Shown here piece by piece: positions 3,483 through 29,817 of a stretch of DNA of 33,177 bases (its first letter is position 1; each line of letters starts with the position of its first letter). Source of the DNA: a virus. The stretch is taken from IMG/VR virus record IMGVR_UViG_3300042290_000832, positions 1 through 33,177 of that record. One strand, 5' to 3'. The position numbers were made by a program, and so were the translations under genes. The notes beneath the pieces were generated by a model that did not search any database, was not told where the DNA came from, and worked only from the letters and a program-made list of their open reading frames with translations.

Positions 3483-4127
3483 ATGACAGGAAACAAAAAG
3501 GTCACAGGTTACGAAGATCTAAACCGCCGCCTCAATGATGAAATGCAGCAGCTTGCCGAAGCAATTGTTGCTAAAACTTTCACCGAAAGAGACCGAAATC
3601 GATTAGTTCGAATAATGGAACCTAAACTTAAATACTTTATTTGGAAGTTCTTTAACGATAAGGACGAAACCGAAGAAGTATTACACAATACGTTCTTTAA
3701 GATATTCAAATCGCTTGATAGCTATAATCCAAAATATAGATTTACAACTTGGATCTATACTATTGCCAGAAATGAATCTCTATTGCATTTGCATAAACTT
3801 AAACAGCAAATGACAACTGATATTGATAAAATTGGAAATTCTCTATTTTTAGTCGATGACAGTCGAGATAATTTAGAAAAGGAGAATTCTTTGGAGAATC
3901 TTTACACTGCAACTATGCTTGCAATTGAAGAGATGCCAGAATCGTTAGAAAAATCCATCCTAATTGACAAGGAGCTAAATAAGATGAAGGGTGCTGATAT
4001 TGCAGACAAATACGATATGAATCTCAATACAGTTAAAACTAAAATCAGAAAAGCACGTAAAATATTAAAAGACTCAGTTTTGGAAAGTAATCCTGAACTG
4101 GTAGAAAAAATAAAGGATCTTTTCTAA
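3483..4127 (+). CDS. RNA polymerase sigma factor, sigma-70 family (ECF-like, sigma2 + sigma4)
   Basis: A 214-aa sigma factor that would bind host RNA polymerase and redirect it to phage promoters. Sigma region 2 lies at about residues 41-105, with the acidic stretch DETEEVLHNTFFKIF (core binding) and RFTTWIYTIARN (region 2.3/2.4, -10 recognition and melting). Sigma region 4 is at about residues 145-197, with a helix-turn-helix ADIADKYDMNLNTVKTKIRKA. Region 1.1 and a full region 3 are absent, as in ECF-type factors. T4 uses the small sigma gp55 for late genes at TATAAATA; a closely similar motif precedes late-type genes in this window, so this protein is a good candidate for the late sigma. 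It is closer in layout to cellular ECF factors than to gp55. Stop and next ATG overlap (TAATG). Confidence 0.9.
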   Translation: MTGNKKVTGYEDLNRRLNDEMQQLAEAIVAKTFTERDRNRLVRIMEPKLKYFIWKFFNDKDETEEVLHNTFFKIFKSLDSYNPKYRFTTWIYTIARNESLLHLHKLKQQMTTDIDKIGNSLFLVDDSRDNLEKENSLENLYTATMLAIEEMPESLEKSILIDKELNKMKGADIADKYDMNLNTVKTKIRKARKILKDSVLESNPELVEKIKDLF

Positions 4128-9457: not shown

Positions 9458-11554
9458 ATGCAGTCTAGATTTATAAAATTAACCGATTATTGTTTACTGG
9501 AATATCAGTATGAATCATTATCGCCGGCAAGTCCGATTTTAATTAATTCTCCGTTCTATGCATTAACATTAGGCGAGGGAGAGATTTACCTATACAACCC
9601 AGATTCAGCACTATATGAAACTGGAAACATTAAAGATTTGACTGCAGTTCCTCTGTCAACTAATAGCGGGCGATTTGTTTATTTAGACTCAGAAGATTCT
9701 CCAAACTATACAGAATATGCAATTAGTAAAGTTCCTGGAGCGTCTGAAACATTAATTCCAGCTGGATCAATTATTGCAGATCGAGTAAGATTCCATTTTG
9801 CATCTGGTTTTCAATTTGATGACTTTTCTAGCCTTGTACTATCAATTAGACAAGATATGAATAACGGTAATGCTTTAATATTAGCAAGCATACTAATTAA
9901 TTCAACTACACTTGGTGATGTTTTATTATTTGCAACCAGACCAATGATTATTGGTAATGCAATGTACGACCGATATATTGATATAATTGTACCATCTATT
10001 AAAAATATGGATGAGCAGTTCTATACTTCACCAAACCCAGCGATTACTTTTGAATATAAAGCAACAACGGTTACGGTAAATGGCACGGCAACTGGAGTAG
10101 GCTTAGTTAAAAACAATCCAATTACAGTTAATCTATTTGAATGTAAAGAGGGTCCAGCCTTTAATACAGCAGACGAGGTTTATTCAACATATGATGTAAA
10201 TCAAGCATATGTCGCTCAAGTAAGTCAAGCAAATGAATTTGATTTAATTGGTGCTAAAATTAGAGAAGCATTAGATGGAGATTATATTGAATTTAATGCA
10301 ACCTGGAATGAAGGTTTCCCAGAAGAATTTATTGGTATACTTGAAAAACGTACTGGACAATCTTGGATAATCTTTCACCAGCTTACAATATTTGAACAAA
10401 TTGGCTCATCATTTATTAAAAGTGGTGACGCAACATTCTTTCAAGAAAGTAATTTTGATGAACCTCTAATTTATAGACCAATTTTAAAAAATGCAAATGA
10501 GGCAGTTAGCATGGCAATTGACTATTCAGTTAGATTAGTTAATAGAACAACAAACGAACAAATTATTAGAACTGGATCTCTAGTAGTAGTTAATCCAAAT
10601 AAGTATGGAAAATCTTTAAGTAAACTTGAATTGGCAGATAAACCAAATTCTAATAGAATTAATAACTTAATTATTACTAAAGTTACAGATTCACTTAAAG
10701 TATACAATGAAACTGAAGCAAACCGCTCAGCTACTTCGACTAATCAGGCGGCTTTAGCAGTTCAATCAGTTGAAACAGTGCCTCAAATTGAAATCCGAAC
10801 TGTTACCGAATACGTTCCAGTATTATTTTCAAATAATAGCATTTTATTAGCGGAAAGCAGTAAAATGACTGGAAGTGGTCAAAACACTGAAGTTGCATAT
10901 GGTCAAGGTTTACTTTCTATTATAGTAAGTCCATTTGATAATGTTTTTAAATTTAAAGTAAAACAAGAAAAATTAAATACTTCAGGTAATCCTGTAATTA
11001 GAACAGTTGATCTTACACAATTTTCATCATTTGAATTAGTTTTTGGAACAGATAATTCAAGAGTTACTGTTAAAAATACTACTAAACAGTCTGAAGTTAA
11101 TTCTGATCTTGGAGAAATTCTATTTAAGTTTGATGTAGCAACAACGTCTAAGATTCTTATGTTAGAAGATACAAAATTCTATATTGTATCGGTAGGAAGT
11201 GACGGCACCCGAACTGCCCTATACACAGGAAAATGGTATAAGCCAGACGGAGCAACTGAGGCAACTACTCAAAACACAGCAGAGGAAACTAGAATTAAAG
11301 CTGAAGAAACTTTAAGAAAGAGACTCGACGAGCTTTCTACTTTAGTTGATCAGCTTAGGGATGAAAATGCAAACCTTAGAAAAAATAGTATTAAGTACCA
11401 AACTTCTCAGGCATCAAACTCAACGTCAGATACTGCGCCAGATTCTAACCCAATCAGACAAGTTAAACCACTCTCGACTGGATATGGAAGGTCCTTAGGT
11501 AGACCTGGATCAGGCGGGAGATTTACCGGAGATGATATAACGACTCAATTCTAA
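9458..11554 (+). CDS. Large putative tail/baseplate structural protein
   Basis: A 698-aa protein in the structural block. It is beta-rich through residues 1-590, with many Asn/Thr/Ile/Val and no cysteine cluster apart from isolated residues. A coiled coil follows at about residues 608-645 (KAEETLRKRLDELSTLVDQL), then a disordered Gly/Ser/Arg tail ending in GRPGSGGRFTGDD. The beta body followed by a trimer-type coiled coil and flexible tail fits a baseplate, tail-fibre connector or neck protein. I do not recognise the specific family. It lies 25 bases after the small coiled-coil gene without an obvious late-type promoter of its own. Confidence 0.75.
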   Translation: MQSRFIKLTDYCLLEYQYESLSPASPILINSPFYALTLGEGEIYLYNPDSALYETGNIKDLTAVPLSTNSGRFVYLDSEDSPNYTEYAISKVPGASETLIPAGSIIADRVRFHFASGFQFDDFSSLVLSIRQDMNNGNALILASILINSTTLGDVLLFATRPMIIGNAMYDRYIDIIVPSIKNMDEQFYTSPNPAITFEYKATTVTVNGTATGVGLVKNNPITVNLFECKEGPAFNTADEVYSTYDVNQAYVAQVSQANEFDLIGAKIREALDGDYIEFNATWNEGFPEEFIGILEKRTGQSWIIFHQLTIFEQIGSSFIKSGDATFFQESNFDEPLIYRPILKNANEAVSMAIDYSVRLVNRTTNEQIIRTGSLVVVNPNKYGKSLSKLELADKPNSNRINNLIITKVTDSLKVYNETEANRSATSTNQAALAVQSVETVPQIEIRTVTEYVPVLFSNNSILLAESSKMTGSGQNTEVAYGQGLLSIIVSPFDNVFKFKVKQEKLNTSGNPVIRTVDLTQFSSFELVFGTDNSRVTVKNTTKQSEVNSDLGEILFKFDVATTSKILMLEDTKFYIVSVGSDGTRTALYTGKWYKPDGATEATTQNTAEETRIKAEETLRKRLDELSTLVDQLRDENANLRKNSIKYQTSQASNSTSDTAPDSNPIRQVKPLSTGYGRSLGRPGSGGRFTGDDITTQF

Positions 11555-11593: not shown

Positions 11594-11603
11594 GATAAAT
11601 AAT
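11594..11603 (+). promoter_or_regulatory. Late-type promoter motif GATAAATAAT
   Basis: TAAATAA at 11596-11602, 20 bases before the ATG at 11623, in a 68-base gap. The clearest copy of the late-type element, before a probably abundant structural gene that ends in a strong terminator. Confidence 0.65.
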
Positions 11604-11622: not shown

Positions 11623-13287
11623 ATGAACGACTTAACAAAAAACTTAATCAAAGAATTAAAAGCAGCACAAGCTGTATCTGAAAGCAGAATGCTACAGATG
11701 TTCGTCGCTGGCGTTGAGGCCAACGTTAATGCTTCTGGCAACATCGAGCAAGCTCTAGCCGATCTAGCTGAAGTTAGTGAAAAACTACAAAATACTGAAC
11801 TTGATGCAATCGTTAAGAAATTTAACGAAATGTCAAATACTCCAGCTAAAAAATTAAAAATGATCGAAAACGGCGCAGCAGTTCTTCCAAAGATTGCTCA
11901 AATTAAAGAATCTGCAGCATATGCAGACCCTATTTTTAGAACAGTTGTTTTAGGTCTTGAAAAAGCAGTAACTGTAAATTCTGAGCCAATCGTGGTAGAA
12001 TCAGTTATTACTAAACTTGCACCATTTTCGTTTGACTCTACTGTTAAGTCAGTGGTTGCTGAATTAACTAAATATGTATCAGAAAATCGTGCAACTATTG
12101 CAATCTTCAATACAATAGCAGATTTAAAGAAAGCACCAAACGCATATTATGCAAAAGTTTGCGAAAAACTAGAAGGAGCAATTCTTGAAGGTAGAACTTC
12201 AGTTGATGCTTTAACTATGATTTTAGCAGAAGCTACTGCTCAACCAGTTATTAAGAATCTTCTTAATAGACTTTCACAATTTGAATCTTCTCAAAACGGA
12301 GGATTTAATTTAGGTTCAGGTAATAGCTCAACTAAAATTAATCCAGTAGTTGGAGTTTATACTAGAACTGCAAACGGAGTTAGAGTTTTAATCGAGAATC
12401 ATATTATTGATATGAATGGTGAAGAAGAAGCCGAAATGGTTCCTTTCTCATCTCTTCCACAAGAAGACGAGTTTACTCAAACTGCAAAAGCTTACACTGA
12501 TTTAGGTTTTAAACCTACTGAACATGGTGTAGAAGCTAAAGGTAAAGCAAATACTATTGCATTTAAAGTTTCTCCAGAAGGCGAAGTTTCATTTGAAATC
12601 AATGGTAAAGTTGCAGAAGACTTAAATAGCTCTGAAATTTACAAAACTTTAGTTGTTGAAACTATTGCATTTAAGCAAAATGTTGCAAAAATTTTAGAAA
12701 ATGCAAATATGATTGCTCAGTTTGAATTCGTTCAACGATTTGTTACTGAAGGTGCTCAAAGTTATGCTATTAATACTGAAAAATCTGGTATTTTTGTTTT
12801 AGACAGACAAGGTCTTAAGAAATATGATACGTTAGGATTCCATAAATATGTTGCTGAAACATTTAAGTATGATGTAAGCGATATGTTTGCAATTCAACTT
12901 TCAGAAAGACAAGAATTTATTAAAAGCGTTAACGAAAGAAAATCTGCAATCCAAGCTGATATTGCAAAATTAGAAGAATCTATCTCTCAACTAAATTCAG
13001 TAATTGCAGAAGCAGATGAAGAAACTCAAGATCAATTGGAAACTCTTAAGCATACAATTAATTCAAGTATTGTAGGTCTTAAGGATGAATATCTTTCGTT
13101 AGATGATAGTTTAGAAACTGATCCTATGTTAGGTTCAAACGGTTCTAAATATGGAATCGGCGATAAAGTAATGCATAATGGTGAACCGGTTGAAATTAGC
13201 GGAGTTACTGCAGATGGTTTATATCAATTAAGCAATGGCGAAACCGTTAAAGAGGACGAGATTATGCCAGAAGTTGAAACTATGTAA
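11623..13287 (+). CDS. Putative abundant virion protein with C-terminal SH3-like domain
   Basis: A 554-aa acidic protein, alanine- and lysine-rich and helical at the N-terminus (residues 1-230), with a mixed middle, a coiled coil at about 435-490 (ADIAKLEESISQLNSVIAEA) and a small C-terminal domain. The last domain, YGIGDKVMHNGEPVEISGV, has the look of an SH3/KOW-like barrel. The gene is monocistronic: it has its own late-type promoter motif and a strong terminator directly after. The N-terminus NLIKELKAA contains an IxE site like those cut by T4 gp21 protease. A high-copy internal or structural virion protein is likely; the family is not recognised. Confidence 0.8.
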   Translation: MNDLTKNLIKELKAAQAVSESRMLQMFVAGVEANVNASGNIEQALADLAEVSEKLQNTELDAIVKKFNEMSNTPAKKLKMIENGAAVLPKIAQIKESAAYADPIFRTVVLGLEKAVTVNSEPIVVESVITKLAPFSFDSTVKSVVAELTKYVSENRATIAIFNTIADLKKAPNAYYAKVCEKLEGAILEGRTSVDALTMILAEATAQPVIKNLLNRLSQFESSQNGGFNLGSGNSSTKINPVVGVYTRTANGVRVLIENHIIDMNGEEEAEMVPFSSLPQEDEFTQTAKAYTDLGFKPTEHGVEAKGKANTIAFKVSPEGEVSFEINGKVAEDLNSSEIYKTLVVETIAFKQNVAKILENANMIAQFEFVQRFVTEGAQSYAINTEKSGIFVLDRQGLKKYDTLGFHKYVAETFKYDVSDMFAIQLSERQEFIKSVNERKSAIQADIAKLEESISQLNSVIAEADEETQDQLETLKHTINSSIVGLKDEYLSLDDSLETDPMLGSNGSKYGIGDKVMHNGEPVEISGVTADGLYQLSNGETVKEDEIMPEVETM

Positions 13288-13311: not shown

Positions 13312-13338
13312 AGAGCCCGAGGTAACTCGGGCTTTTTT
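13312..13338 (+). terminator. Rho-independent terminator with GTAA tetraloop
   Basis: Perfect 8-bp stem AGCCCGAG/CTCGGGCT (13314-13321 and 13326-13333) closed by a GTAA (GNRA) loop and followed by a T6 run. It insulates the structural gene from the methyltransferase gene. Confidence 0.92.
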
Positions 13339-13343
13339 ATTAG

Positions 13344-13349
13344 TATAAT
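13344..13349 (+). promoter_or_regulatory. TATAAT-class promoter (TTAG-TATAATA)
   Basis: TATAAT preceded by TTAG and followed by A, 6 bases after the terminator T run and 26 bases before the ATG of the FkbM methyltransferase. No conserved -35-like element is seen upstream. Confidence 0.6.
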
Positions 13350-13375
13350 AATCTAAACATACTTAAAGTAGTAAC

Positions 13376-14194
13376 ATGGCAAAACAGAAAACAGCAGACG
13401 TATTGATTAGTCTAGAAGAAGCTAGAGAACGCGGACTCCTAATCCATACCAAAAAAGACACACCGTATTTTAATTACAGTTTATTTGTACGTTCAGAAGA
13501 TGAAGTTAAATACAATATTAATCAAAACATTAGTAAAACTGCTACAGGCGGGGAATACTTTAGTCCATTATTTAGAACCGATTGGAATACTAATGGTCAT
13601 CAATTTCAACTAGAAAACTTAGACCAAGAGGACGTGTGGTTAGATGCAGGTGGACATATTGGAGTTTTTGCAACTCGTCTCTTAACCCAATTTCCACGAA
13701 TTAAGAAAGTTTTGTCGTATGAACCTTTTCGTAATAATATTGAGTTTGCTGAACTTAATCTTGGAGAAAATGGCGTAGCTGACCGTTGTGAAATGATTGA
13801 GGCTGCACTTGTACCAAACGATGATACAAAAAATGTAGACTTCTTTTTAGCTTGGGATTCAGGTAAACACTCACTACTTCCAGTTAGAGGTCGTACTCAA
13901 GTAACAGTTCCTGCTAAAAACTTTAGCGAAGCCCTTAAAGAAGCAACCTGCTTAAAAATGGATGTAGAGGGCGCTGAATACGATTTGATTAAATCTGTAG
14001 AAGATTGGTCAAATATCAGAATTGCTATTATCGAATATCATTTCCACTATCGTAATCTTTCTAAAGGGCGCGTTGAAAAATTCAATGAAATCTTAGATAT
14101 TTTTAGAGCAAATTTTGATGACATTTATGTTTGCCCTAATGTTGAAAATACTAAAACTTGGATTACTCACTTTGCAGCAGTAAAGAGAGGTTAA
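13376..14194 (+). CDS. FkbM-family S-adenosylmethionine-dependent methyltransferase
   Basis: A 272-aa methyltransferase of the FkbM type, enzymes that usually O-methylate sugars or related secondary metabolites. The SAM-binding motif I is WLDAGGHIG (residues 88-96), the acidic residue after strand 2 is in SYEPF (Glu116), and the family signature KMDVEGAEYDL lies at about 194-204. The next gene encodes a glycosyltransferase, so the two probably act on the same glycan: on phage particles, phage DNA, or host surface. The gene has its own promoter and terminator and sits between structural genes, a typical moron position. The substrate cannot be read from sequence. Confidence 0.9.
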   Translation: MAKQKTADVLISLEEARERGLLIHTKKDTPYFNYSLFVRSEDEVKYNINQNISKTATGGEYFSPLFRTDWNTNGHQFQLENLDQEDVWLDAGGHIGVFATRLLTQFPRIKKVLSYEPFRNNIEFAELNLGENGVADRCEMIEAALVPNDDTKNVDFFLAWDSGKHSLLPVRGRTQVTVPAKNFSEALKEATCLKMDVEGAEYDLIKSVEDWSNIRIAIIEYHFHYRNLSKGRVEKFNEILDIFRANFDDIYVCPNVENTKTWITHFAAVKRG

Positions 14195-14215
14195 TTTAAG
14201 TTGATCTAGACCTAC

Positions 14216-14240
14216 AGGCCGAGGAAACTCGGCCTTTTTT
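14216..14240 (+). terminator. Rho-independent terminator with GAAA tetraloop
   Basis: Stem AGGCCGAG/CTCGGCCT (14216-14223 and 14228-14235) with a GAAA (GNRA) loop and a T-run ending at 14240, directly after the methyltransferase gene. Confidence 0.92.
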
Positions 14241-14263
14241 GTAATCTTATGATGAAACTATTG

Positions 14264-14269
14264 TATAAT
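14264..14269 (+). promoter_or_regulatory. TATAAT-class promoter, leaderless geometry
   Basis: G-TATAAT-A with exactly six bases (14270-14275) between the hexamer and the ATG at 14276. If the hexamer is a -12 to -7 element, the A of ATG is +1 and the mRNA is leaderless. This argues against the upstream ATGs at 14249 and 14252 as starts. Confidence 0.6.
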
Positions 14270-14275
14270 AAAAAT

Positions 14276-15355
14276 ATGAATACCCCAGCTGCAGTATATG
14301 CATATTTTGGATATCTAGGTGATTTTTCAACAGATATTCCAGGTCACACATTTTATCAACTTGGTCTAATTGATCAATTATGTCTTTCTCATCATGTAGA
14401 TAAAGTCGATTTTTATTCCTACTTATCACATGATTCGATTGGAGCAGATCAAAAATCTCCAGTTTGGCCAAAGAGCCCAGTTACGCCAGTTTTTGAAAAA
14501 TTTACCAAAGAAAGAATTCGTTCCTACAATTTAAGTTTTCCGAAAATTATGGAAAATATTGAAAAGGGTCGATATGAAAAAATATTTCTAAAAGCTAGAT
14601 TTAGAAATCTTTCAACTTTAACTAAACAATTAACTGATGCTAAGCAGTTTGAACTAATTATTACAGCAGCAATTCAAAGTGGCCAGGCAAATAAGGTTGT
14701 AATACTAGATACAGATCTTTCACTAGAACCAGAGTTTGTGGAATTTTGCAAATCTCAAGGAATCTCATTTGAAATTCCATCAATAGACTATCCAAACATA
14801 TCAAAGGCCTTTATTAAAGACTGCGAAAAAGTTTGGTTAGAAGAAACAGATCGTTTTGATAGAAACAATAAGATTTTTTATTATGGAAATATTTCATTTG
14901 GAAATTATAAAGCAGGTCACGCAAAAAATCCAATTGTAGTTGATGCAATTAAAAATTCTGCAGAGTTTAAATCATTTACTGGAAAAAAATATGAGGTATC
15001 AGTAGCTGGAAAGCTTGACCCAGCTTTAGCAGAAGAGTTTACAGAAAGACATATTAAATTAATTAAACGATACGATCGTTCTGATATTTGGAATGAATAT
15101 GCAAGTTCAACCATTAGTTTAAATATTTCAAAGGATCTTTATGTAGAACGCGGATTTTATCCAGCCAGGGTATACGAAAGCCTTATATTTGGCGCGATTC
15201 CAGTCTCATATAAAGATTATCGTATTCATGAAGCTCTTGGATTTACAGATTTGGTTAAATTAGAAGAAATTCTGGCATTTTTTAAAGATTCTAGCCCTTC
15301 TGACCGAGCTTCCATCTATTCTAAGTGTATTTCAAATCTGTTTCCATTTAGATAA
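14276..15355 (+). CDS. GT-B fold glycosyltransferase
   Basis: A 359-aa protein if started at the ATG at 14276, chosen because the TATAAT element lies over the upstream in-frame ATGs (14249, 14252). The C-terminal half has a nucleotide-sugar-binding GT-B pattern: IFYYGNISFGNY opens the domain, SVAGK follows, and RGFYPARVYESLIFGAIPV carries the Arg and Glu that usually contact the donor in family 1-like enzymes. The length and the order of segments are similar to T4 DNA beta-glucosyltransferase (351 aa), although identity by eye is low. It pairs with the FkbM methyltransferase upstream. Possible targets are modified phage DNA bases or glycans on virion or host proteins; no hydroxymethylase is in view to decide. 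Confidence 0.75.
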   Translation: MNTPAAVYAYFGYLGDFSTDIPGHTFYQLGLIDQLCLSHHVDKVDFYSYLSHDSIGADQKSPVWPKSPVTPVFEKFTKERIRSYNLSFPKIMENIEKGRYEKIFLKARFRNLSTLTKQLTDAKQFELIITAAIQSGQANKVVILDTDLSLEPEFVEFCKSQGISFEIPSIDYPNISKAFIKDCEKVWLEETDRFDRNNKIFYYGNISFGNYKAGHAKNPIVVDAIKNSAEFKSFTGKKYEVSVAGKLDPALAEEFTERHIKLIKRYDRSDIWNEYASSTISLNISKDLYVERGFYPARVYESLIFGAIPVSYKDYRIHEALGFTDLVKLEEILAFFKDSSPSDRASIYSKCISNLFPFR

Positions 15356-15359
15356 ATAA
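15351..15359 (+). promoter_or_regulatory. Late-type promoter motif GATAAATAA
   Basis: TAAATAA at 15353-15359, 22 bases before the ATG at 15382. It overlaps the glycosyltransferase stop codon and would restart late transcription after the moron-like cassette. Confidence 0.6.
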
Positions 15360-15381: not shown

Positions 15382-17910
15382 ATGGCATCAAAATATATTC
15401 AATCTAGGGAATCTGTATTATCACTAAACCCTGGGGACGCGGAGAGATTATCATCATTTATTAATGAGTTTGGAGAGTCTCTTATTAACATTATTGAAAA
15501 CTGTGCAATCCGAATCCAGGACGTACAAACTGCAACCGATACTGCAGATTTTAGAAAGTATCAGCTTTCATTAGAAAGCGTTGGATTTAACCAGTCTGAA
15601 ATTACCCAAATCGAGCATACTCTATTTGCTAAGGGTCTTATTGGAGAAAATCTTTTCGTTGAATCAAATTATCAAATAACTAGAATTGTCGATGAATATA
15701 CTTCAATTAATGAAGGAGTAGTTGATTTTTTAGCTGGTTTATGGAATGCGTTAACTGAAGACAGTTCGCCAATTGGCATTCTTCAATTCTTATTAGATTT
15801 AATTGGATTTATTCCAGCATCATACGTTGGATTTCCAATTGATGTTGTTGCAGATGGATTAAATGCGATAATTTACATGTTTAGAGGACGTTGGCTAGAT
15901 GCAGGGATTAGTGCAATTGCAGCGTTTTTACCTGGAATTGGTGATGCAGCAAAAGCGGTAAAATACGGTAAAAACGCAGCCAAATTAGAAAAAGCATTTG
16001 AATCTATTATTAAAACCGGTAAAGCTGAAGAAAAACTTATTGCTGAACTTGCTGCAGATTCTGGTGCAAGGGTTGTATTAGATGGAATGTCATCAGTTGG
16101 TACAATTATGCTTAAGGTTTTTCATGGTATTGCTTTAGGAATTGGTCATATATTAAGTATACCTCCCATTAGTTGGCTTACATTTGGTGGAAGTACCGCA
16201 TTAGGAAAAAAACTTATTTCTTGGGTCGATGAAGTAATCACACCAGTTGCTAGAAATCTAGAAAAATTTGGTGGCGAGACCGTACTTAAAGGCGGCGAGG
16301 ATATTGCATCTCTAATAAAGACTGGAGATATTTCGAAAATTACAGATAATATTGATGAGTTAATTGCAGCTGGAAAATTTGGAGATATTGCTCAGCATGT
16401 TCCTTTCAGAAAAATGCTTGCAAGTTCTGAACTTGCATTTACTAAGGAAATGGCTTCCAATCCAGACCTATTTAGAAAGGCAGTTGATGCAAACTTTGAT
16501 AAATTTAAAAATGAACTTATCGATTTTAGATCAAAGTTGAAAAAGCCCCTTGAAAAAGCTGAGCTTGATATGCTAGACAATGAAATGAGAGCTGTTTATT
16601 ATGAAATGGAATCAAATAAATTGTTTGTAAAAGGTCTTCTTAAATTAGATGAGGCTGGCGGAGAGGTTCTTGCAAAATATTGGTCAGCGGCAGCAGTTGG
16701 TGGAAAGGGTACAAGTCTATCAGCAGATATTTTTAAAACTTTAAAGGACGATCCCGAAAATATTAAGAAATTTTTTGGTTGGTTAGTAAGCCACCCAGAA
16801 ACAGTCAAGGCATTAAATGATGCTGGCCCAGGCGTAACTCAACTATTTAGAGTATTTGCAAAAAACCCTGAAATTGCAATTAAATTGTCAGAGGCCGGAA
16901 CCCAAGCTGCTGCAAAATTTGCAAAACTTCAAGATGAATTGGGAGATCTCGGTATAGCTTTAGTAAGAAGAAGATTTAATAGAAACCGCCTTATTACTGC
17001 AAAATATTTAATCGGTGCAGCATTGCGTTGCCCAGTTAGTTTTATGGCAAAGGGCGCAAACGTTCTTACTGGTAATCTTGGTAAAATGTTTGGACCAGAA
17101 AAGACTGCTGATAAGAAAGGATTTGGAGAATTTAATGAAGGATTAAAGTATATTAAATACAAATACGAATTTTTAGCAGAGGCTGCTAAAACTGAAGAAG
17201 TCGAAGCTAGTTCAGTGACTAATGCTTGGGGAAGTAGCGAACAACACACAAACGTTGCTATCCAAACTGAAGAATTAAAAAAGGAAGTAGCAGTTGAAAC
17301 CAAAAAGATTGCAGATACACAGCTTACTGCAATTATTGGTCCTAAGAGCTTTAATGATATTTGTTTAAGTGTTCCAGCTCAAGTTATCGACACTGCAGCT
17401 GCGACCCAAACTTTGACTGATACCGGCGGACATGGTGATAATACTTCTAAAATTCAAGAGATAACTGGAGCTACTCCATTGAGCGCAACTGCTAATGATG
17501 ATGCAGTTAATCAAGTTCTAGATCAAACTGGTGTACCAAGAGTAAATAATTCAACGGAAGGAATTTTTGTAGAATTTAATGCTGGAACTGATCCTAATTT
17601 AATTGCAGAAGCTAGACTCGATGCCGATCTTGGAGTTAGAGGATTATGGTATCACTTAGCACAAATTCAAAATGGAGAAATATCATACGAAGGCTCTATT
17701 GTAAATAAAATTAATTCATTAATGGATTTATATGGAAGCTATTATAATAAGGTTTCAGCAAATGCCGATAGACTCTCAAAACCTTCTTTATATCCAAATC
17801 CAACTGAAATTGCTTGGATTAAATCTGAATTAGCTAAAGTAAAAGCAGACCCGTCTTATATGCCAAACTTTTTTGGCGCAGACGTAAATCCAAATGTATT
17901 ATTTAAATAA
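15382..17910 (+). CDS. Large virion-type protein with hydrophobic pre-toxin-like segment
   Basis: An 842-aa protein, first of three long genes in a late-type block. Residues 131-200 are a hydrophobic Gly/Ala-rich segment (FLLDLIGFIPASYVGFP, later AAFLPGIGDAAKAVK) that resembles the membrane-associated linker found just before toxin domains in polymorphic toxins. A second hydrophobic stretch lies at about 240-275. The remaining 550 residues are helical, with repeated Ala/Lys/Glu patterns, then a Thr/Ala-rich tail. It lacks an obvious catalytic motif. In large phages such proteins are often ejected with the DNA and may insert in the host membrane; I infer this role from composition and context only. 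Confidence 0.75.
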   Translation: MASKYIQSRESVLSLNPGDAERLSSFINEFGESLINIIENCAIRIQDVQTATDTADFRKYQLSLESVGFNQSEITQIEHTLFAKGLIGENLFVESNYQITRIVDEYTSINEGVVDFLAGLWNALTEDSSPIGILQFLLDLIGFIPASYVGFPIDVVADGLNAIIYMFRGRWLDAGISAIAAFLPGIGDAAKAVKYGKNAAKLEKAFESIIKTGKAEEKLIAELAADSGARVVLDGMSSVGTIMLKVFHGIALGIGHILSIPPISWLTFGGSTALGKKLISWVDEVITPVARNLEKFGGETVLKGGEDIASLIKTGDISKITDNIDELIAAGKFGDIAQHVPFRKMLASSELAFTKEMASNPDLFRKAVDANFDKFKNELIDFRSKLKKPLEKAELDMLDNEMRAVYYEMESNKLFVKGLLKLDEAGGEVLAKYWSAAAVGGKGTSLSADIFKTLKDDPENIKKFFGWLVSHPETVKALNDAGPGVTQLFRVFAKNPEIAIKLSEAGTQAAAKFAKLQDELGDLGIALVRRRFNRNRLITAKYLIGAALRCPVSFMAKGANVLTGNLGKMFGPEKTADKKGFGEFNEGLKYIKYKYEFLAEAAKTEEVEASSVTNAWGSSEQHTNVAIQTEELKKEVAVETKKIADTQLTAIIGPKSFNDICLSVPAQVIDTAAATQTLTDTGGHGDNTSKIQEITGATPLSATANDDAVNQVLDQTGVPRVNNSTEGIFVEFNAGTDPNLIAEARLDADLGVRGLWYHLAQIQNGEISYEGSIVNKINSLMDLYGSYYNKVSANADRLSKPSLYPNPTEIAWIKSELAKVKADPSYMPNFFGADVNPNVLFK

Positions 17911-22383: not shown

Positions 22384-22411
22384 AAAGGAGACCAAATTGG
22401 TCTCCTTTTTT
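22384..22411 (+). terminator. Rho-independent terminator
   Basis: 10-bp stem AAAGGAGACC/GGTCTCCTTT (22384-22393 and 22399-22408) with an AAATT loop and a T-run to 22411. The following TATAAT promoter starts two bases after it. Confidence 0.9.
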
Positions 22412-22412
22412 G

Positions 22413-22418
22413 TATAAT
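22413..22418 (+). promoter_or_regulatory. TATAAT-class promoter, leaderless geometry
   Basis: TTTG-TATAATA with exactly six bases (22419-22424) before the ATG at 22425. It would give a leaderless ligase mRNA and rules against the TTG start at 22410. Confidence 0.6.
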
Positions 22419-22424
22419 AAGTAT

Positions 22425-23720
22425 ATGACAAATCTCAAGCAAATTCAGGAATTTATTGAATCGATGAATGTAACATCATCGACTAATGATAAAAAAGCAG
22501 TACTTAGTCAATTTGATAGTCCATTTCTTAGAAAGATCCTGGAATATACGTATTCTCCATTTAAACAGTATTATGTAACTCCGGCCAATTTAAAAAAGCA
22601 CGCAGAGCTATCCACTAATAAGTATAGTGATCTATTTACGTTACTAGACGACCTGAATGACAGGCGTATCACTGGCAACACTGCAATTGCATATATGAAT
22701 GGATTTATAGCTCAAAATTTGGAGTTCTCAGAAGTGATCTATAGTATCTTAGATCGCAACCTAAAAACTCGTGCTACAACTACTCTAATTAATTCAGTTC
22801 TTCCAGGAACTATTCCAACGTTTGACGTTGCGCTAGCTTTACCATATGACGATAAAACCAAAAAGAAAGTAAGGCTTGAAGATCATTGGTATATGAGCCG
22901 TAAACTCGATGGAGTCCGCTGCATTACGATAATTGATGAGACTGGTGAAATTAAATTCTTTTCTAGAGGCGGCAATGAGTTCCTAACTCTAGATACGCTG
23001 AAGGCTGACATTAAAAAACTAAACCTAATTGATACTGTTCTTGATGGTGAGGTTTGTATGATGAATGCTGAGGGTCAAGAAGATTTTCAAGGAATTATTA
23101 AAGAAATTGGTCGCAAAAACCATACAATTAAAAATCCTAAGTATTTGGTATTTGACTGCTTAACCTTGGAGGAATTTAATACTCAAACTTCTTCAACTGA
23201 TAGAACCTTTAAGGATCGAATTACAATTGCTGCTTTAATATTTAGTGGAATTGACTTAAAAAATACTACAATATTAAAACAAACCTTAATTGAATCTGAA
23301 GAGCAGTTACAAACTGAAATTACTAATTCGACTGCTCAGGGTTGGGAAGGTCTAATGCTAAGAAAAAACACACAATATATTGGAAAACGTAGCGATGAAA
23401 TCCTTAAAGTCAAGAAATTTTGGGATGCAGAATATATTGTAGAAGGTGTTGAAAACTCAACTCACCGAGTTATCGAAGATGGCCGAGAGGTTGAAGAAGA
23501 AATGCTTGGAAATATTTTCATTACACACAAAGGAAATCAAGTTAGGGTTGGTTCAGGTTTTTCAATTGAACAGCGACGTCAATTTTATAAAAACCCTGAT
23601 CAAATTTTAGGTAAAACAATCACTGTTCAATATTTTGAAGAAACAACTGACCAGCACGGTCAGCACTCTTTAAGATTTCCAGTTATTAAAGCAATTTACG
23701 AAAAAACAAGAACAATATAA
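22425..23720 (+). CDS. ATP-dependent DNA ligase
   Basis: A 431-aa ligase that seals nicks in DNA through an enzyme-AMP intermediate. Motif I is RKLDGVR with adenylated Lys160; motif III is FFSRGG; motif IV is LDGEV; motif V is EGLMLRK followed by ILKVKKFWD. A C-terminal OB domain follows, with VRVGSGFS. An N-terminal helical region of about 110 residues precedes the catalytic core. The size is between T7 (359 aa) and T4 (487 aa) ligases. It heads a probable operon with guanylate kinase and ssDNA-binding genes (overlap TAATG with the next). The ATG at 22425 is preferred to the TTG at 22410 because the latter overlaps the promoter. Confidence 0.95.
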   Translation: MTNLKQIQEFIESMNVTSSTNDKKAVLSQFDSPFLRKILEYTYSPFKQYYVTPANLKKHAELSTNKYSDLFTLLDDLNDRRITGNTAIAYMNGFIAQNLEFSEVIYSILDRNLKTRATTTLINSVLPGTIPTFDVALALPYDDKTKKKVRLEDHWYMSRKLDGVRCITIIDETGEIKFFSRGGNEFLTLDTLKADIKKLNLIDTVLDGEVCMMNAEGQEDFQGIIKEIGRKNHTIKNPKYLVFDCLTLEEFNTQTSSTDRTFKDRITIAALIFSGIDLKNTTILKQTLIESEEQLQTEITNSTAQGWEGLMLRKNTQYIGKRSDEILKVKKFWDAEYIVEGVENSTHRVIEDGREVEEEMLGNIFITHKGNQVRVGSGFSIEQRRQFYKNPDQILGKTITVQYFEETTDQHGQHSLRFPVIKAIYEKTRTI

Positions 23721-25472: not shown

Positions 25473-26432
25473 ATGATAAATGAAACAACTCGCCTTGGAT
25501 ATTGCTGTATTAACCTATCACTAGATAGAAAGGTTACTGCAAATCGTGGTATGATTAAGAAAACCTTTCAACAAAAGGGTATTCAATACTGTGGCGAGTT
25601 GGCCCATCAAAATATCAAGGATATTCTTACGATCTTAAAATGGAATGTTGCAAATGACATTTATGTTTATCGTATGTCTAGCGATGTTTTTCCATGGATG
25701 TCAGAATATGAAATTACTCAATTGCCAAATTTTCAGGAAATTCTACCCGACATGCAGGCAATTGGAGAATTTGTACTTGCAAATAATATTAGATTATCAA
25801 TGCACCCTGGTCAGTTTGATGTTTTACCTTCGCCAACTCCAAGCGTTGTTACAAAAACTATCAAAGATTTAAATCAGCATTCTGAAATTATGGATCTAAT
25901 GGGATTACCAAATGACCATAGATTTCCAGTTAATATTCACGTAGGCGGAACTTACGGTGATAAAGAAGCGGCTGCTGATAGATTTTGTCAAAATTTTAAA
26001 CTACTTAGCAAATCTGCCCAAAACCGACTGGTTGTAGAAAATGATGATAAGGCTACACAATATTCAGTTCAAGATCTCTATGATTTAATTACTGCAAGGA
26101 TTGGAACACCTATCACATTTGATTTTCACCACCACCGATTTAATACCAGTGGATTAACTGAAGAGGATGCTCTAACTCTTGCAGCTTCAACTTGGCCTTG
26201 CACTCCGCTAACACACTATTCAAGTTCAAAGAAAACATTTGAAGATTCTTCAGTTATTGCTAGATCTCATGCAGATTATATCTATGAACAAATCAATCCT
26301 TATGGATTAGTGTTAGACATTGAAGTTGAAGCAAAAGCCAAAGATCTTGCTGTTCTAAAATACAGAGAACAGTATAATACTCTATTAGAAAATTATATTC
26401 CATTTGAACATGAGCGACTGCAAGAATTGTAA
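25473..26432 (+). CDS. uvsE: UV-damage endonuclease (UvdE/UvsE family)
   Basis: A 319-aa TIM-barrel endonuclease that nicks 5' to UV photoproducts. Family motifs are clear: RLGYCCINLSL at the start, YRMSSDVFPW, the metal-binding SMHPGQFDVL, NIHVGGTYGDK, VVENDD, and TFDFHHH near the end. These provide the His, Glu and Asp ligands for the metal cluster. The length is normal for bacterial enzymes. In a lytic phage it would repair UV-damaged genomes after infection, which fits a sunlit aquatic habitat (inference). The zinc-binding gene that follows overlaps its 3' end. Confidence 0.95.
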   Translation: MINETTRLGYCCINLSLDRKVTANRGMIKKTFQQKGIQYCGELAHQNIKDILTILKWNVANDIYVYRMSSDVFPWMSEYEITQLPNFQEILPDMQAIGEFVLANNIRLSMHPGQFDVLPSPTPSVVTKTIKDLNQHSEIMDLMGLPNDHRFPVNIHVGGTYGDKEAAADRFCQNFKLLSKSAQNRLVVENDDKATQYSVQDLYDLITARIGTPITFDFHHHRFNTSGLTEEDALTLAASTWPCTPLTHYSSSKKTFEDSSVIARSHADYIYEQINPYGLVLDIEVEAKAKDLAVLKYREQYNTLLENYIPFEHERLQEL

Positions 26433-29016: not shown

Positions 29017-29817
29017 ATGCCAGAAGGACCAGAGTGCAGACGCGTATATGAAGGTTTGCTAAATTACACAATTAATAAAAAACTAGCTAGGGTAGACATA
29101 CTTGGCGGTCGATTCTTAAAGACTCCCCCAGTTGGCCTGGGAGCCCTGGAGCTGCCCCTGGAGGTAGTTGGCGGTGGAGTTAAAGGCAAATTCATCTGGT
29201 TAGAATTGGAAGGCGCCATGTCTATCTGGATTACATTGGGAATGAGCGGATTTTGGTCAATCTATCAAAAACCCCATGCGCATATTAAACTTGTATTTGA
29301 TGATGGTCTTGAACTATTTTTTATTGATCAGCGCCGATTCGGTACTCTTAAATTTGCAAGTAAGGTTGAGTTAGACGCAAAATTAAAAACCCTAGGAGTC
29401 GATGCACTAAATGATACAACTGCATCTGTTTATAATACGCTTAGATCATTTGAGAGGGTTCCAAATAAAACTGTTGTAGAAGCACTAATGGATCAGAGAC
29501 TTTTTGCAGGAATTGGAAACTATATTAAATGTGAAATGCTATATCGTTCTAAGATTTCCCCACATAGATTGGTTAAGGATCTTACCGATAATGAGATTCA
29601 ATTACTATGGGACTATTCTAAATTAATTAGTAGGGTATCATACGCACAGGGCGGAGCAAGTATTAGAAATTATCAGCAAGTTACTGGAGAATCGGGAGAC
29701 TTTGTTTTTGAATTTGAGGTATATGGAAAAAAAGAAGATCCTCATGGAAATACAGTAATTAGAGAAAAAACTGCAGACGGCAGAACTACACATTGGGTTC
29801 CAAGTCTACAACAATAA
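29017..29817 (+). CDS. Fpg/Nei-family DNA glycosylase with cysteine-free finger
   Basis: A 266-aa base-excision enzyme that removes oxidised bases and cuts the abasic site. The catalytic N-terminus MPEGPE (Pro2, Glu3, Glu6), Lys58 in VKGKF, and LGMSG with Met75 are present. The helix-two-turn-helix LMDQRLFAGIGNYIKCE is followed by SKISPHR. The C-terminal finger is in place (VYGKKEDPHGN... to DGRTTHWVPSLQQ, about 235-266), with the conserved Arg256, but all four zinc Cys positions are lost: PHGNT replaces PCxxC and VPSLQ replaces CPxCQ. This is a zincless finger as in NEIL1-type enzymes. It starts an early-type promoter unit. Confidence 0.93.
   Translation: MPEGPECRRVYEGLLNYTINKKLARVDILGGRFLKTPPVGLGALELPLEVVGGGVKGKFIWLELEGAMSIWITLGMSGFWSIYQKPHAHIKLVFDDGLELFFIDQRRFGTLKFASKVELDAKLKTLGVDALNDTTASVYNTLRSFERVPNKTVVEALMDQRLFAGIGNYIKCEMLYRSKISPHRLVKDLTDNEIQLLWDYSKLISRVSYAQGGASIRNYQQVTGESGDFVFEFEVYGKKEDPHGNTVIREKTADGRTTHWVPSLQQ

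Follow-up and report, generated by a model that had tools for sequence, protein, structure and literature searches.

A conserved FkbM methyltransferase-glycosyltransferase gene pair as a candidate for adding a methylated sugar to hydroxymethylcytosine in a lineage of uncultured phages

The closest described counterpart of the locus reported here is the hydroxymethylcytosine (hmC) pathway of phage T4 (gp42, gp56 and the glycosyltransferases alpha-GT and beta-GT), in which alpha-gt is transcribed from a middle promoter (PMC13216743). In RB69, which has arabinosyl-hmC, the modification was first inferred from the presence of hydroxymethylase and dCTPase homologues (PMC6024577). Deamination of hmC has been described to leave hmU opposite G (PMC3488261). 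Which bacterial defences act depends on the identity of the sugar (PMC11078745, PMC13216743); one of them, the host-side DNA glycosylase Brig1, excises alpha-glucosyl-hmC and stops the phage (PMC11078745).

The DNA analysed here, a stretch of 33,177 nucleotides (the window), is part of a phage genome and includes a gene for a T4-type large terminase. It comes from a large, uncultured phage, and its lineage consists of ~250–270 kb phages whose hosts are probably Bacteroidota. A scan of cellular genomes gave a single match, a contig of 254 kb that had been binned with a Bacteroidetes MAG. This contig bears the same gene block and is evidently of phage origin. Between g11623 and g15382 the window encodes an FkbM methyltransferase and a GT-B glycosyltransferase (GT), the two genes that an earlier note on this DNA had claimed (Table 1). 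As in T4, the lineage has a dCMP-hydroxymethylase homologue, a gp56-like dCTPase homologue in part of its members, and a GT-B enzyme with a non-late promoter. Unlike in T4, the GT lies in the structural region and is unrelated by sequence to AGT or BGT, and the lineage adds the FkbM methyltransferase and an MBD4-type glycosylase. The RB69-type phages likewise combine a very divergent glycosyltransferase with hydroxymethylase and dCTPase homologues in the genome (PMC6024577), but FkbM is not mentioned for RB69, and the RB69 sugar is known chemically. We consider it most likely that the pair decorates a chemically altered cytosine of the phage genome with a methylated sugar, and propose that it probably forms the post-replicative arm of a T4-type hmC pathway.

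Table 1. Features of the gene block, in window coordinates.
Feature	Position	Strand	Details
g9458	9458..11554	+	conserved syntenic neighbour; MaF61 homologue in baseplate gene group
Late-type promoter ATAAATAA of g11623	11595..11602	+	ATAAATA in 50/51 loci
g11623	11623..13287	+	conserved neighbour upstream of FkbM (synteny)
Intrinsic terminator of g11623	13312..13335	+	10-bp stem, GTAA loop, T tract
FkbM extended -10 promoter TAGTATAATA	13341..13350	+	AG + TATAAT conservation
FkbM-family SAM methyltransferase	13376..14194	+	272 aa; PF05050 E 3.9e-12
Intrinsic terminator between FkbM and GT	14216..14235	+	8-bp stem, GAAA loop, T tract
GT promoter TATAAT (TTGTATAATAAAAATATG)	14264..14269	+	12 nt to ATG
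GT-B glycosyltransferase	14276..15355	+	359 aa; structure model, fold search, alignment
Late-type promoter ATAAATAA of g15382	15352..15359	+	overlaps GT stop codon

Loci were collected with four seeds (FkbM, g11623, g9458 and GT), and gene order was determined by profile searches. Whichever seed was used, the order g9458-g11623-FkbM-GT recurred in almost every locus that was long enough to show it, down to ~35% identity; one contig (L090/L145) had GT and lacked FkbM. The dN/dS of FkbM was about 0.016–0.036, indicating very strong purifying selection. A recent sweep as the source of the high FkbM identity was rejected, as synonymous divergence was ordinary (dS 0.5–0.6). The pair is a long-conserved core module of the lineage rather than a passing accessory cassette.

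Two promoter classes are real. Of seven copies of the late-type element ATAAATAA on the + strand of the window, six stand no more than 60 nt ahead of a gene, at a distance of 22–30 nt, against 0.4 expected; of 23 TATAAT copies, 10 stand no more than 60 nt ahead of a gene, against 1.2 expected. TATAAT clusters before genes that are not structural, namely those for FkbM, GT, ligase, an exonuclease and Fpg. These counts bear out the earlier assignment of TATAAT-class promoters to the pair and ATAAATAA-class promoters to its neighbours. Across loci, ATAAATA precedes g11623 almost invariably (background 2.4%; Table 1), and a TATAAT stands ahead of FkbM at 33 of 54 loci (background 4.2%). The FkbM promoter has the consensus TAGTATAATW, a conserved, non-late type in which the AG before TATAAT is invariant in 23/23 aligned examples, none of which has a -35 element. 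In many of the remaining, more distant loci an element of the TAGTATAATW type precedes a small ORF immediately upstream of FkbM. In distant relatives a conserved ORF of ~90 aa (L162:6739-7023 and similar) abuts FkbM upstream and bears a TAGTATAAT promoter. The DNA ligase gene (22410-22425; TATAAT at 22413, ATG at 22425) and GT (14264-14276) have a common layout, TTGTATAATAAAnATATG, and the 12-nt spacing from TATAAT to ATG in both suggests leaderless mRNAs.

Terminator-like sites are enriched in the 7-kb region (8, against 3.8 ± 2.0 in shuffles). The stems of both terminators are preserved in the closest clade, where the second GNRA loop has changed (L009/L011, stem kept), and both terminators are missing from the next clade (L012-L017), so that the proposed insulation of the pair from upstream transcription holds for the window's clade and not beyond it. 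The own promoters and terminators in this clade are what speaks for the description of the pair as moron-like, that is, as a dispensable, recently acquired cassette. The comparison of relatives that was suggested as its check went against it: presence in some close relatives and absence in others was not observed at this site, where almost all relatives have the pair flanked by the same genes and one contig lacks FkbM. Synteny thus rejects the moron reading, which is also contradicted by the selection on FkbM and by distant clades in which the genes form one operon with the terminators missing; we regard it as scarcely credible. The earlier note had further held that fixed core genes with late expression in all relatives would tell against its proposal. 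Fixed they are, but late expression is not indicated, since the FkbM promoter is of the non-late type.

The FkbM protein scored above the Pfam cut-off for PF05050 (47.1 bits, cut-off 22.7), and both the SAM motif I (DAGGHIG) and the FkbM motif (KMDVEGAEYD) are conserved in the alignment. The usual substrates of this family are sugars, lipids or antibiotics, and we know of no member that works on a DNA-linked sugar. We predict that this one is an O-methyltransferase acting on the sugar transferred by GT; its placement as the second step follows from the FkbM-less locus that retains GT. In the literature searched, no paper paired FkbM with hmC, or dCMP hydroxymethylase with hypermodification.

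The GT start was set at ATG 14276, where homologues of the next clade begin with MKKILYAYFG. A start at the in-frame ATG at 14249 was rejected because distant homologues start at 14276, and it is also disfavoured because TATAAT would then fall within the gene. The GT scored below the curated cut-off of PF13524 (Glyco_trans_1_2; E 0.006, 16.9–17 bits, cut-off 25 bits), and no match was found in PHROGs or the annotated phage collection. Sequence searches of the PDB with the GT, FkbM, g11623 and g9458 profiles gave nothing useful. The AlphaFold model of GT (pLDDT 87.9, pTM 0.89) retrieved GT-B enzymes in a fold search, with the LPS enzyme WaaG the best match (8b62, E 3e-9) and O-GlcNAc transferase and OtsA among the others; the model confidently indicates a GT-B fold, with its two Rossmann domains, resembling UDP-sugar enzymes. 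In the alignment the KARFRN loop and the YK and R..E...G motifs are invariant, as is E301, the conserved Glu of the C-terminal domain in GT-B enzymes. The strictly conserved basic loop KARFRN-L adjoins the least confident stretch of the model and may contact the acceptor. Direct homology to T4 AGT or BGT was rejected, as hhalign detected no sequence relation (probability 1.8% and 0.9%); the AGT family PF11440 gave no match in 9 records, in a search run without a positive control. The E-x4-G-x-IPV spacing equals that around Glu311 of T4 AGT, and the viral structures similar to the model include annotated DNA alpha-GTs, among them that of cyanophage S-TIM5. We predict that GT is a DNA (hydroxymethylcytosine) glycosyltransferase.

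All eight GT-bearing contigs of at least 200 kb, some of which are near-identical strains (G005-G007), encode a second TS homologue in addition to the canonical TS. The second homologue matched CMP hydroxymethylase MilA (1.5e-23) and T4 dCMP hydroxymethylase (5e-19), both ahead of TS, and has the Asn-to-Asp change in 6/6 aligned sequences (RSNDxxWGTPTD, compared with RSNDVVFGFRND in T4 gp42 and RSVDxxLGLPFN in TS). Asn to Asp switches recognition from dUMP to dCMP; the change also fits a dCMP methylase. The largest contig near the window, G001, shares 97% identity with it in FkbM and carries a hydroxymethylase gene; the 33-kb window itself has none. Of the 12 metagenomic samples with window-clade GT contigs, 7 also contained hydroxymethylases with 91–100% identity, and in one metagenome the lengths of a GT contig (141.9 kb) and a hydroxymethylase contig (114.2 kb) add up to the usual genome size. 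A gp56-like dCTPase/dUTPase is present in five genomes (G005, G008-G011); PF08761 alone gave weak C-terminal matches only, and the assignment was settled by full-length alignment to T4 gp56 together with PHROGs. It was not found in G001-G004, some of which are fragments, and G001 has a trimeric dUTPase-like ORF at a comparable position. The canonical TS of the lineage (L184:8089-9342 and others) is longer than usual, at 380–430 aa with extra inserts.

Three outgroups that share only distant g9458 homologues with the lineage lack GT, the FkbM cassette and the hydroxymethylase: the cultured Flavobacterium phage MaF61, whose genome is complete, and the contigs G018 and G019 of ~190 kb each. Megaphage LR756500 has a hydroxymethylase without a GT of this type. 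Among the genomes sampled, therefore, GT occurs only together with the hydroxymethylase.

In 28 of the 56 non-redundant loci with both genes, FkbM and GT are separated by an ORF of ~140 aa, its frame often overlapping those of its neighbours. The product matched PF00730 (E 2e-8) and, in the PDB, MBD4 entries with E values from 4e-29, and its HhH-GPD fold with the catalytic Asp retained in PxDxxLxxY identifies it as an MBD4-type glycosylase. The gene is absent from the window clade and was not found elsewhere in the contigs searched. MBD4 is classically a T:G enzyme, and T or hmU opposite G is what enzymes of the MBD4/TDG type act on.

MBD4-like genes also accompany Asp-type TS homologues in two unrelated phage groups. 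In the Bosavirus/Bradleyvirinae phages DoCa6 (Xanthomonas), AXL_1 (Stenotrophomonas) and Donnerlittchen (Janthinobacterium) the MBD4-like gene lies two genes from the TS homologue, and a dCMP deaminase adjoins in the same run; neither GT nor FkbM is annotated there. These runs (L196:11917-14588, L205:11917-15052, L206:19917-22960) also contain a pyrophosphohydrolase/HAD hydrolase and, in AXL_1 and Donnerlittchen, an annotated DHFR, which would fit dCMP methylation rather than hydroxymethylation. The Bradleyvirinae run probably specifies an unreported cytosine-5 modification. Cyanophage S-TIM54 has an MBD4-like gene, an annotated DNA alpha-GT, and an Asp-type ThyA alongside ThyX. Its gene annotated ThyA (OP053362, L204:15398-16240) has the dCMP-type Asp (RSNDMATGVPLD) and, with ThyX also present, may be a hydroxymethylase. 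In S-TIM54 and S-TIM5, unlike here, the genes are scattered and no FkbM partner was seen, and the structural likeness to our GT concerns the S-TIM5 enzyme only.

The role in DNA modification is best supported by the company of the pair: the fixed module, the MBD4-type gene, the hydroxymethylase, the dCTPase and the promoter. In the pathway that we envisage, the dCMP hydroxymethylase encoded elsewhere in the genome would convert dCMP to hm-dCMP and, in part of the lineage, the gp56-like dCTPase would remove dCTP, so that hmC would enter the phage DNA. GT, expressed around replication from its non-late promoter, would move a hexose from a UDP-sugar onto the hydroxymethyl group, and FkbM would O-methylate the transferred sugar. 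In about half of the lineage the MBD4-type glycosylase would excise hmU paired with G after deamination of hmC. Like Brig1 it would be a DNA glycosylase tied to glycosylated hmC, but phage-encoded, of MBD4 type and with a predicted repair role. Phage DNA coated in this way would be shielded from restriction, from Cas nucleases and from DNA glycosylases that are sugar-specific; protection from bacterial defences is probably the purpose of the modification, and defences directed at particular sugars, for instance Brig1-like glycosylases or enzymes of the GmrSD type, may be blocked by the methyl group. The promoter type common to FkbM, GT and the ligase, exonuclease and Fpg genes supports the scheme, whereas the best PDB matches of GT (LPS and other GT-B enzymes) and the location of the cassette, in the structural region and not adjoining the hydroxymethylase, count against it. 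The full combination, hmC with an O-methylated sugar made by a new DNA-GT family and FkbM, with a dedicated MBD4-type enzyme clearing the deamination product, is advanced as a tentative proposal.

The main rival is a virion protein target, in which GT would glycosylate a protein of the baseplate, neck or head whose gene lies next to the pair, and FkbM would methylate the sugar. In its favour, the pair is located in the structural region and its linkage to g9458 and g11623 is invariable; the neighbours are called structural on the basis of position, the g9458 homologue of MaF61 being surrounded by baseplate genes. MaF61, however, has its g9458 homologue without GT, a DNA glycosylase gene intervenes between FkbM and GT, the promoter is distinct from the late-type promoters of the neighbours, and no acceptor protein was identified, all of which makes virion glycosylation unlikely. 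Modification of an LPS or capsule sugar during infection, excluding superinfecting phages, would suit the similarity of GT to WaaG and the general habit of FkbM enzymes of methylating surface glycans. Yet such genes normally vary between phages, while this pair is fixed, with FkbM under very strong purifying selection, an MBD4-like neighbour and co-occurrence with the hydroxymethylase; we consider this reading highly improbable. Of the three targets offered by the earlier note, modified phage DNA is thus favoured, and nothing points specifically to virion proteins or the host surface.

Even with DNA as the target, the second TS homologue might be a dCMP methylase or other pyrimidine enzyme, with GT and FkbM decorating a different hydroxylated base. 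TS mutants illustrate that Asn to Asp alone can yield a dCMP methylase, and both the T:G preference of classical MBD4 and the DHFR annotated in two Bradleyvirinae with the same glycosylase agree with this. The second TS homologue is nonetheless nearer to hydroxymethylases than to TS, GT requires a hydroxyl, and five genomes carry the gp56-like dCTPase, leaving a different base a rather improbable substrate. If the hmC scheme is correct, GT represents a new DNA-glycosyltransferase family, and methylated-sugar hmC, not described before to our knowledge, would be the first DNA base known to us that carries an O-methylated sugar. The link between MBD4-type glycosylases and 5-substituted cytosine, seen in three unrelated phage groups, offers a testable reason for such enzymes in these phages, namely hmU:G or T:G repair. 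Two genes that could readily be set aside as accessory cargo form a core module in a lineage of uncultured phages seen in many metagenomes.

Among the neighbours, g11623 is probably a late/structural gene; fold search returned mainly uncharacterised phage proteins, including those of Tenacibaculum phages PTm1 and pT24, and, with low overlap, the pT24 DNA ligase. No informative family match was found for g11623 or g15382, the latter also lacking a significant Pfam or PHROG match. Directly downstream of GT, g15382 (15382-17910, 842 aa) has hydrophobic stretches around residues 120–190 and ranges from 98% down to ~32% identity among relatives in which FkbM is 97–99% identical. The window further encodes the DNA-repair enzymes UvdE endonuclease (25473-26432) and Fpg glycosylase (29017-29817), and a sigma-70-family factor (PHROG 1740, 3483-4127) that could be a late sigma factor reading ATAAATAA.
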